A stretch of DNA of 64,000 nt, from NCBI RefSeq assembly GCF_900774055.1, contig NZ_CAAGSW010000006.1, forward strand, positions 62,001 through 126,000. The letters are read 5' to 3'. Source of the DNA: Methanococcoides sp. AM1. Its GTDB lineage: Archaea > Halobacteriota > Methanosarcinia > Methanosarcinales > Methanosarcinaceae. The position numbers and the translations under genes were made by a program. Below the pieces are notes generated by a model. The model ran no database searches. It was not told the origin of the DNA and saw only the letters and a program-made list of their open reading frames with translations. Below, in pieces: positions 7,443 to 46,021 of the stretch (position 1 is its first letter; each line of letters opens with the position of its first letter).

Positions 7443-7795
7443 CCGAGAGAGGAAGGACGACCACCGGGCCTTTGGCCTGAGGAAAGTCTCCCCATCATCC
7501 AGATACACGAACACCTGTGAAGGGTGTCTGGCGAGAGCCAGGGCGCTGGCACAGAAACGATACCACCCCATGTTAATGCTATGATACTGAAAGGTTGAGG
7601 TCGCATGGCAAGTGGATGGAACGGCGAAACCTCGTGGGTGCAAGTTGGAAGTAGGGATAAAACGGGTTTCTGGACCGTCCCGAAGTTATTAACGCTTAGC
7701 CGAATGTCGTCAATGCAAGAGTCCGTAAGGACCTTCACTATCCGCCCTGCGGATAAGGAATTTTGCATCAACAGAAGGGAGCTTACTCTCCTCAC
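7443..7795 (+). ncRNA. rnpB: RNase P RNA (archaeal type A)
   Basis: The catalytic RNA that removes 5' leaders from pre-tRNAs. Conserved elements are in order: CR-I GAGGAAAGTC at 7479-7488, an ACAGAAA box at 7551-7557, and CR-V ACAGAAGGGAGCTTACT at 7771-7787, which forms the P4 helix with CR-I. The ends pair as P1 (GAGAG near 7445 with CTCTC near 7786-7790). A TATA box and a T-run (7807-7816) flank it. The length of about 350 nt is usual. Exact ends are estimated. Confidence 0.93.
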
Positions 7796-7854
7796 TCACA
7801 AACCACATTTTTGTTTCGGAATAAAGTTACAAGGACGAAACGGTCGAAAAACAA

Positions 7855-39218: not shown

Positions 39219-39893
39219 TCAAGTGTGCATGCCGAAAGCGCGCTTTATCTTTTTCCCGGTTCCCACGATCATCTGTTTTACAACATAGGAAACAGGCGTC
39301 CTTCGCCCTCCGGAAGTTACGTTCCCGTCACGTATGGCCTGAAGCACTGATTCCACCGTCCTTTCCGAAGTATCCACCTCAGTATAAGAACAACCAACCA
39401 TCTTTGCTTCATGTGAATCACTGCCTCCTACCTGCGGGAAATCAAGCTCTTTTGCAACCTTTTTTGCCTTGTTGTTAGCACCACCGGTCACACACCTGGA
39501 ATTCAGGACCTCTACAGCATCAGCATCAAGCCCTTCAACGTACCCGATACCATGAGATGTTATCTTGAAAGGGTGAGGAATTACCACAACACCTCCAAGC
39601 TCTCTTGCACGTTCTATTGTTTTCTCAGGGGTCATTCCTGGTTCGATGTCCCCATCCGGAGCAAGTACCAGGATATGTCCTTTAGAAGAGGTGACCTCAA
39701 TCCCAGGGATAACAACCATATCAGAACCTAATTCCTTTGCCCTTCTGGCACAGGCAAGGCCTCCCTCCCGGGTATCATGGTCACATATTGCAACACCATT
39801 AAGACCATTTTTTTTTGCAAATTCAAGAATAGAATCTATTTCAGCATTGCTATCCTTTGAAAAACAGGAGTGGACATGAAGATCAATACGCAT
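39219..39893 (-). CDS. PHP-domain metal-dependent hydrolase
   Basis: 224 residues. PHP-fold motifs: MRIDLHVHSCFSKDS (motif I, metal-binding HVH), GVAICDHDTREGG (motif II), VVIPGIEVTSSKGHILVLA (motif III), VIPHPF (His) and GGSDSHE near residue 156. Relatives hydrolyse phosphoesters, for example nucleoside bisphosphates or histidinol phosphate; the substrate is not evident. A minus-strand TATA box (CTTTATAAC, about 39917-39925) is so close to the ATG that the mRNA should be leaderless. Confidence 0.87.
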   Translation of the reverse strand: MRIDLHVHSCFSKDSNAEIDSILEFAKKNGLNGVAICDHDTREGGLACARRAKELGSDMVVIPGIEVTSSKGHILVLAPDGDIEPGMTPEKTIERARELGGVVVIPHPFKITSHGIGYVEGLDADAVEVLNSRCVTGGANNKAKKVAKELDFPQVGGSDSHEAKMVGCSYTEVDTSERTVESVLQAIRDGNVTSGGRRTPVSYVVKQMIVGTGKKIKRAFGMHT

Positions 39894-39981
39894 ATAGAGA
39901 AAGCTGTGCTTTCCAGTTATAAAGTTTTTGAAGAATGCCCTGCATAATTGGTCAAAAAAAGAAAAATAGGAGGACTAAAAA

Positions 39982-40060
39982 GCGAACGGGATGAATCAAG
40001 TCGATTAAATAGGGGATTTGTGGTGTAGTACTTAGGGGATGTATGAAGAAACCCGTTCGC
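39982..40060 (-). ncRNA. Probable small RNA gene
   Basis: Minus strand, between hflX and the PHP gene. A TATA box with BRE-like part (GCGAAAAGTATATATG, about 40083-40098) predicts transcription from about 40061. The RNA begins GCGAACGGG at 40060-40052 and ends CCCGTTCGC at 39990-39982, a perfect 9-bp closing stem, followed directly by TTTTT. The 61-nt loop is mostly unpaired and shows ATCCCCTA twice (40040-40033 and 40017-40010), complementary to G-rich ribosome-binding sites. No ORF. I do not recognise an Rfam family. A target role is inferred. Confidence 0.6.
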
Positions 40061-40082
40061 AATTATACAAACGTTCTGTACC

Positions 40083-40098
40083 CATATATACTTTTCGC
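40083..40098 (-). promoter_or_regulatory. Promoter of the probable small RNA
   Basis: On the minus strand GCGAAAAG is followed by TATATATG, about 25 nt before the 5' stem of the RNA. Confidence 0.55.
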
Positions 40099-40135
40099 AT
40101 GTATACGAACAAATATTAACCGAATGTTAATATTA

Positions 40136-41383
40136 TTAAGAAGAAATAGCGAAAGACTGCATTTTCTGAATGATCTCATCCCTTGCTTCTATATCCATAA
40201 TAATAGAATCACCGTACTCGATCGTGTGCACAATACCTTCATCATAAAGCCATGATACCATGGACATCCCCTCTTCGGACATCGGGATGGATATCCTGCA
40301 ATGTTCCCATTCAGGAAGGTTACCATATAGAAGCTGCTTAAGTTCGTCAAGGCCTTCTCCAGATATTGCAGATATCATGACTGGATCAGGAGCAAGATAA
40401 TCGATCACGTCCAGCTTTTCTTTCAGATCATCTTCAGGAAGCAGGTCTGTCTTGTTAAGAGCAGTAACTATCACAGCACCCTCTGTTCTCTTCCAAAAGA
40501 TATCATGACTGACTGCCAGTTTCTGTCTGATAACATCCACAGGATCACTCATATCCACCACAAGAAGAATGATATCAGCCAGGAAGATCTCATCAAGAGT
40601 TGACCTGAAAGCATCTACCATCCAGTGAGGAAGGTCTTCGATAAATCCCACAGTATCCGTCAGAAGCATTTTTCTTTTGTTGATCGTGAGAGAACGTGTT
40701 GTAGGAGACAGTGTCGTAAAAAGCATGTCCTCGACTATTGTCCCCTCCTCGACAAGTGACTGGAAAAGGGTACTTTTTCCCGCATTCGTATACCCTGCCA
40801 GAGCTACAAGTGAAAAACCCCGCTCATGCCTGAAACTGCGAAGTGACTCACTCCCCTTGCACGAATGAAGAAGTTCGGTCCTGATCCTTACGATCCGTTT
40901 CTTAATATCCTGCTCATACGAATCCTCATATCCTCCAAGACCCATAAACCCCGGTCGTTCCTCTTTTTTCAGCAGGGAAACAATAGACCTTGCCTTAGGA
41001 AGCTCATATTGCAATTTTGCAAGCTCGACCTGCAGTTTTGCACGTCTTGTGGTAGCTCTTGCAGCAAATATCTCAAGGATAAGCTGGAACCTGTCCATAA
41101 CCTCACATTTGCAGGTCTCGGAGATATTATAGATCTGCGTCGTTGATAGCTGGTTGTTAAAAATTACTTTTTCAGCATCCAGAGCTTCTACAAGTTCTGC
41201 GAGTTCATCTGCCTTGCCACGACCTACCTGGTACTTCCGGTCAGGATATCTTGATTGCACCAATGTGCCAACAACCACATAATCAGCAGCATGTGCTAAC
41301 TCCTTGAGCTCGGCCAGCTTCCGCTCATTTGCAGCATCATCAGAATTCGGATCATTTCGTTGGACAACAATGGTTTTTTTCAT
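40136..41383 (-). CDS. hflX: GTPase HflX
   Basis: Ribosome-associated GTPase of the Obg-HflX group. The N-terminal HflX domain (VVGTLVQSRYPDRKYQVGRGKADELAELVEAL, then VIFNNQLSTTQIYNI) is followed by the glycine-rich linker and the G domain: GYTNAGKSTLFQSL (G1), DTVGFIEDLPHWM (G3), NKTDLL (G4). I start at ATG 41383 (MKKTIVVQRNDPNSD), which follows AAGGT; 13 further codons upstream stay open. In bacteria it rescues or splits stalled ribosomes; in archaea the role is less clear. Confidence 0.93.
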   Translation of the reverse strand: MKKTIVVQRNDPNSDDAANERKLAELKELAHAADYVVVGTLVQSRYPDRKYQVGRGKADELAELVEALDAEKVIFNNQLSTTQIYNISETCKCEVMDRFQLILEIFAARATTRRAKLQVELAKLQYELPKARSIVSLLKKEERPGFMGLGGYEDSYEQDIKKRIVRIRTELLHSCKGSESLRSFRHERGFSLVALAGYTNAGKSTLFQSLVEEGTIVEDMLFTTLSPTTRSLTINKRKMLLTDTVGFIEDLPHWMVDAFRSTLDEIFLADIILLVVDMSDPVDVIRQKLAVSHDIFWKRTEGAVIVTALNKTDLLPEDDLKEKLDVIDYLAPDPVMISAISGEGLDELKQLLYGNLPEWEHCRISIPMSEEGMSMVSWLYDEGIVHTIEYGDSIIMDIEARDEIIQKMQSFAISS

Positions 41384-41479
41384 AATACAACCTTGAACGG
41401 AATCATGCGGATACATATCCAATGTTTATCTATTAGTGATAAACAAATTGATGGATGTATAGGTAAGTGGTTAAACTAA

Positions 41480-45618: not shown

Positions 45619-45716
45619 AAGAACCCAAGACTTCTTTCAGCTTGTTTCTTGTTTTTGTTATTTATTATTATTAAGATCTGCAAAGAACAGAGTTAAACTT
45701 AATTGAATATTGAGAT
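45619..45716 (+). terminator. T-rich stretch after the regulator gene
   Basis: TTGTTTCTTGTTTTTGTTATTTATTATT (about 45642-45670) follows the stop codon and may end the plus-strand transcript before the minus-strand tRNAs. Confidence 0.35.
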
Positions 45717-45790
45717 GGGCCTAACCGGATTTGAACCGGTGATCGCCCGGTTATGAGCCGGGCGCTCTAACCTGACTAAGCTATAGGCCC
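45717..45790 (-). tRNA. tRNA with CAU anticodon (probably tRNA-Ile2)
   Basis: 74 nt cloverleaf: acceptor GGGCCTA/TAGGCCC, D arm TAGCTTAGTCAGGTTAGAGC, anticodon arm CCCGG-CTCATAA-CCGGG, T arm ACCGG-TTCAAAT-CCGGT, discriminator A. No CCA in the DNA. A CAU anticodon can be elongator Met, initiator Met or Ile2 (with modified C34). The GGGCC acceptor end resembles archaeal isoleucine tRNAs more than the GCC-starting elongator Met or the initiator, so I favour Ile2. 23 nt after tRNA-Asn and probably co-transcribed. Confidence 0.85.
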
Positions 45791-45813
45791 TCAAAAAAAG
45801 GTAAGTAGAAAAC

Positions 45814-45885
45814 GCCGCCAACAGGGCTCGAACCTGTGACATTCTGATTAACAGTCAGACACTCTACCAACTGAGTTATAGCGGC
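45814..45885 (-). tRNA. tRNA-Asn (GUU)
   Basis: Acceptor GCCGCTA/TGGCGGC, D arm ACTCAGTTGGTAGAGT, anticodon arm TCTGA-CTGTTAA-TCAGA, T arm CACAG-GTTCGAG-CCCTGT, discriminator G at 45813 as usual for Asn. No intron. A TATA-like AAAAGGTTTAAG lies upstream on the minus strand near 45930. Confidence 0.95.
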
Positions 45886-46021
45886 ACTTGATTGCGCTTC
45901 AACGCACGATTCCTCCTAATGCAGTTATCGAACTTAAACCTTTTGTTCGAAAAAGCAAAAATGCCCGCAATAAGCAGGAATTTTCGCAATTTTGAACCAA
46001 AATACCGCCCTAGGATTCCAC

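Follow-up and report, generated by a model that had tools for sequence, protein, structure and literature searches.

The minus strand between hflX and a PHP-domain gene of Methanococcoides sp. AM1 very probably carries, judging from its sequence, a genuine small RNA gene that belongs to a family of RNAs not catalogued before and spread over methane-cycling archaea. The window analysed is a stretch of 64,000 nucleotides, of which the locus occupies positions 39954–40109. The best explanation, and in our judgement a fairly probable one, is a free-standing noncoding RNA gene of about 80–105 nt, which belongs to the class of family members with a TTCG-N8-CGAA box in the promoter (class A), would be controlled by the redox sensor MsvR and would act in trans through its C-rich loop.

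The features of the locus are reported in table 1. The preliminary description had placed a BRE/TATA promoter on this strand at the right distance from a perfect 9-bp stem followed by a T-run, and all of these elements are present: the centre of the TATA box lies about 27 nt from the first stem base, a distance that matches the one mapped for msvR of M. acetivorans (PMC3729527). Its loop of 62 nt and RNA of about 80 nt measure 61 and, from arm to arm, 79 nt. The predicted fold has an energy of -18.3 kcal/mol, compared with -7.8 ± 2.3 in dinucleotide shuffles (z = -4.6; none of 200 as good). The motif ATCCCCTA does occur twice in the loop as described, but its single-stranded context is confirmed only in part, weak internal pairing being predicted near both copies in a partly open loop. 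Overlooked at that stage were the MsvR-type operator, the paralogs and the CCUCCUA element of the 3' tail. The right half of the second palindrome, TTTGTATAATTGCGAA, is the start of the stem; sequence comparison indicates that this palindrome is kept in class A, and to some extent also in class B. In the named collection, Methanococcoides vulcani has the nearest hflX, with 93% identity. The window also contains an ordinary archaeal RNase P RNA (7445–7797, plus strand) and ordinary tRNA-Met/tRNA-Asn genes (45716–45886, minus strand).

Table 1. Features of the small RNA locus and of its two neighbours, in positions of the window.
Feature	Positions	Strand	Remarks
MsvR-type operator TTCGTATACATGCGAA (TTCG-N8-CGAA)	40094..40109	-	overlaps/abuts BRE; motif and position as in msvR promoters
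TATA box TATATATG	40083..40090	-	purine-rich BRE immediately 5'
Second, imperfect operator-like palindrome TTTGTATAATTGCGAA	40056..40071	-	spans predicted start site
5' stem arm GCGAACGGG	40052..40060	-	predicted transcription start about 40060
C-rich loop, 61 nt	39991..40051	-	
Loop motif ATCCCCTA, copy 1	40033..40040	-	reads TAGGGGAT on plus strand
Loop motif ATCCCCTA, copy 2	40010..40017	-	reads TAGGGGAT on plus strand
3' stem arm CCCGTTCGC	39982..39990	-	pairs with GCGAACGGG over 9 bp
T5, first possible terminator	39977..39981	-	directly after 3' arm
CCTCCTA element of 3' tail	39967..39973	-	anti-Shine–Dalgarno-like; similar elements in many class-A members
T-rich tract TTTTTCTTTTTTT	39954..39966	-	second, stronger terminator-like run
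hflX, upstream neighbour	40136..41422	-	separate from RNA; domains GTP-bdg_N, MMR_HSR1, HflX_C
PHP-domain gene, downstream neighbour	39219..39893	-	separate from RNA; own TATA-like ACTTTATAA just 5' of start

Full-length matches to the RNA were found by DNA search in the window's genome and in eight of 10 congeners, and a stem-loop pattern matched 69 of the 112 genomes of the taxonomic family, with few control matches. With a covariance model built from 44 sequences, members were detected in 95 of 186 genomes of the order. Of the 238 genomes of the class, 155, from 27 of the 39 genera, contain members according to a second model built from 36 diverse members (E <= 0.001 per genome); chance alone would account for about 0.24 genomes. 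The preliminary description had suggested an undescribed small RNA of the Methanosarcinaceae; relatives do occur throughout that family, but the scope is far wider, the RNAs forming a multi-copy family across the class. That the gene is of the small RNA type and undescribed agrees with its promoter, its stem, its T-run terminator and the results for open reading frames (see below), and with Rfam 15, in which the window and 18 loci of all classes gave no match at the RNA at either gathering or permissive thresholds. The literature on the stem sequence, on MsvR-controlled RNAs and on the identities of M. mazei sRNAs gave no match either; individual members may already stand anonymously in published sRNA tables.

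The members were divided into classes A–E, which are labels only, as are f1–f7 for families and g1–g36 for genera. Class A is defined by the promoter box given above, class B comprises the hflX-linked genes of Methanolobus and Methanomethylovorans without the box, class C the arrays of Methanosarcina, class D those of family f4 and class E the short members. There are up to seven copies per genome, often tandem paralogs in arrays of two to four, and the paralogs adjoin different, unrelated genes. Among the hits of the 44-sequence model are paralogs with the stems GUGAGCGGG/CCCGCUCAC in tandem arrays of Methanosarcina, and others with GCGAGCGGG/CCCGCUCGC in tandem triplets of another family. 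Members span 50–109 nt, the hflX-linked gene being 79–97 nt long, and class E, of 50–60 nt, has a near-constant ACCCCCACUCCCC loop end. The window's genome contains a second member, of class E and 53 nt, outside the window (G000:C1:201898-201950; L292:1899-1951). In the sister genome G006, class E is present as two identical tandem copies with diverged flanks. In two Methanococcoides relatives (G003 and G005, loci L003 and L006), the class-A RNA is itself in tandem, the copies lying about 230 bp apart, each with an operator and a TATA box.

The preliminary description had made its reading depend on compensatory changes in the stem of relatives, and these are found at five of the nine pairs (1, 2, 3, 5 and 9) among 128 distinct RNAs. 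In this set, pair 2 is CG in 77 and UA in 51 RNAs, pair 5 is AU in 69 and GC in 59, and pairing is about 97% or more at every position. In a 36-sequence alignment, double changes occupy 32 cells, against 11 ± 2.8 in shuffles (0/500 as high). A first count of covariation, on sequences picked by the stem pattern, was weak and biased, and was redone on covariance-model hits with other stems. The support from covariation is strong, yet lies below the impression given by the raw counts, since these are counts of RNAs, not of independent change events.

Like the covariation, the other comparative properties of the family all speak for an RNA gene. The loops contain 5% G and 36% C, and are mostly unpaired in prediction (mean 0.79). 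Between tandem copies the RNA is 88–100% identical, while identity of the distal upstream flanks falls to 62–75%, and 96 of the 100 family members checked have a TATA-like sequence at a similar position. When 2.09 Mb of a sister genome were scanned by composition for perfect GC-rich 9-bp stems enclosing a loop of 30–100 nt rich in C and poor in G, only three hits were returned, namely the counterpart of the locus RNA and two paralogs; the numbers for locally shuffled genomes were 1, 0 and 0. A start-to-stop frame is absent from 65 of 96 RNAs, the longest has 14 codons and none is conserved. Membership of the C/D box sRNAs was rejected, as an RUGAUGA C box with a CUGA D box occurs in 0 of 96. 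Separately, an intergenic site of G006 (C1, about 1319900-1320010) has a TATA box followed by GAGTTCT...CCCCCACCCCCCACAACTAACTTTTTT...AGAACTC and may be a further RNA with a C-rich loop, closed by an unrelated stem.

Class-A promoters, that of the window included, carry the TTCG-N8-CGAA box fused to TATA at -49 from the stem, with the consensus GTTCGTAT..AT.CGAAA; the class is defined by this box, and its sequences were partly gathered by similarity to a stretch containing it. The same box is found in the same place before TATA in the msvR promoters of seven further genomes and of most others examined. In the genome that we take to be that of M. acetivorans C2A it reads TTCGTAGTCACGCGAACGTTTTATATA. 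The msvR gene of the window's genome lies at G000:C4:258331-259062, with TTCGGATACTACCGAA before its TATA. In vitro, TTCGN7-9CGAA is recognised by the reduced M. acetivorans protein (MaMsvR), which leaves the DNA once oxidised; one TTCGN8CGAA within a coding region (rpoK) is unbound (PMC3729527). The exclusivity of the box refers to one sister genome, in 84% of which it precedes TATA outside genes only at the msvR promoter and at the locus RNA; TTCGN7-9CGAA directly before a TATA-like sequence occurs at three sites there, these two and one intragenic. In genus g11, the perfect box is absent from both the msvR and the RNA promoters examined, and within Methanococcoides the middle eight bases differ between the msvR and RNA boxes.

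The operator sequence and its position suggest that the RNA is repressed by reduced MsvR and expressed on oxidation, and the class-A RNA may thus be an oxygen-stress RNA of strict anaerobes. Classes B–E are without the box, so that the family as a whole cannot have redox control as its role. Two further sites of this kind were observed. In Methanolobus (L163, L142), a gene for an IscA/HesB-type Fe–S protein has a promoter arranged like that of the class-A RNA, with operator plus TATA. The only other TTCGNA-N4-TRCGAA of the window's genome (L139:1500-1516; G000:C5:263065-263090) has a weak TATA and is close to an SPFH/stomatin-like ORF.

The RNA probably works through its loop, with mRNA or a protein as the partner. 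The preliminary description had proposed a general blocking of G-rich ribosome binding sites, in which the ATCCCCTA motifs mask AGGGGAT-like sites of many mRNAs, and we regard this as quite unlikely. Loop and tail are indeed C-rich, with CCUCC-type elements resembling an anti-Shine–Dalgarno sequence that recur in many class-A 3' tails, and action on ribosome binding sites has been reported for sRNA41, sRNA154 and sRNA162 of M. mazei. However, when 1,842 start regions were examined in the sister genome (ORFs and starts called by a simple script), loop 7-mers complementary to positions -20..-1 numbered 130, below the 225 ± 59 of shuffled loops, the duplex energies of the loop were like those of shuffles, and AGGGGATG and AGGGGATT occurred in only two and one start regions, respectively. 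For the tail CCUCCUA and the class-E loop, complementarity is slightly above the shuffle mean and non-significant. In 84% of the sister genome, nothing else nearly complementary to the ATCCCCTA segments was found beyond the RNA genes themselves. Nor is ATCCCCTA the conserved feature: it is confined to some Methanococcoides relatives, and other members have CCUCUCC, ACCACC or ACCCCCACUCCCC. Since a trans-acting sRNA may have few targets, these results argue against general masking but not against base pairing altogether. A protein partner, for which stem and C-rich loop would form a docking site or decoy with no mRNA pairing mechanism, is unlikely but a serious rival, because stem positions 3, 4, 6, 7 and 8 hardly vary among the 128 RNAs and are more constant than pairing alone requires. 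It would also agree with the near identity of the class-E loops across several families and with the negative genome-wide complementarity tests, and multiple tandem copies are compatible with titration. On the other hand, covariance models favour similar stems, so that this constancy is partly due to ascertainment; part of the class-A and class-B stem may be kept as DNA operator half-sites instead, and the strong differences in loop between classes are unfavourable to a single protein site.

The order hflX, RNA, PHP gene on one strand, found both here and in Methanolobus class B, could indicate a cis-acting 5' leader or attenuator of the PHP-domain gene, or a 3' terminator of hflX, with no independent RNA. 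This is very improbable given that the RNA has a promoter of its own, that the T-runs are followed by a TATA-like sequence belonging to the PHP gene and that paralogs stand beside unrelated genes in tandem arrays of two to four. Least credible of all is the absence of any RNA function, the arms serving a transcription factor as operator half-sites in the DNA (TTCG/CGAA): GCGAAC and GTTCGC do include the MsvR half-site, and the second operator-like palindrome lies across the start site, but the stems of classes C–E, such as GUGAGCGGG/CCCGCUCAC, have no CGAA/TTCG and still pair perfectly, and the G-poor loop, the TATA spacing and the tandem copies would be left unexplained.

In the trans-acting, MsvR-controlled RNA that we prefer, the 9-bp stem at the extreme 5' end would clamp a largely unstructured, almost G-free, C-rich loop. 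Reduced MsvR would probably cover the TTCG-N8-CGAA box together with BRE/TATA and keep the class-A gene off; on oxidation MsvR would let go, and the RNA would be made together with MsvR. The RNA would most likely act in trans through the loop, perhaps also through its CCUCCU tail, by pairing with a few G-rich mRNA sites, and the translation or stability of these mRNAs would be adjusted under oxygen stress. More tentatively, and with slightly less than even confidence, we propose a large and old archaeal sRNA family in which class A is wired to MsvR as its main, perhaps nearly its only, output in Methanococcoides apart from msvR, which would give these strict anaerobes an RNA-based response to oxygen stress. 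The oxygen response of strictly anaerobic methanogens is poorly understood, and in Methanosarcina few targets of MsvR other than msvR have been tested; as a conserved RNA gene with an msvR-like operator, the locus offers a directly testable second one. A covarying family absent from Rfam and present in most genomes of the class provides comparative depth for work on archaeal sRNAs, and it occurs in genetically tractable hosts (M. acetivorans and M. mazei).

Among the closest known systems is the autoregulation of msvR in M. acetivorans and M. thermautotrophicus (PMC3729527), which the locus resembles in having TTCGN8CGAA directly 5' of TATA, in the place of MsvR box B. It shares with the MsvR regulon an msvR gene in the same genome, with the same operator type at its own promoter; the literature examined names no small RNA among the targets of MsvR. 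The M. mazei sRNAs named above are likewise intergenic methanogen RNAs with a presumed action on mRNA, ribosome binding sites included. Two of them were considered and set aside by description, not by sequence, as their published loci and sizes differ from those of the hflX-linked gene: sRNA154 (130 nt) lies between MM3337 and MM3338 and has an NrpR operator, and sRNA162 (191 nt) lies between MM2441 and MM2442. sRNA41 or other listed M. mazei sRNAs may be family members. Three members were found in genome G043, presumably that of Methanolobus psychrophilus R15. For strain R15, 195 intergenic sRNAs have been mapped, including conserved cold-induced ones (PMC5378194); the nine 'cold box' sRNAs reported there disagree in number with the three family members, a comparison of numbers and not of sequences. 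By analogy only, and with no homology of sequence or structure claimed, the class-A RNA may be likened to the bacterial RoxS/RsaE of Bacillus and Staphylococcus, a redox/NO-regulated sRNA controlled by a redox regulator and equipped with C-rich single-stranded targeting motifs (PMC4409812).
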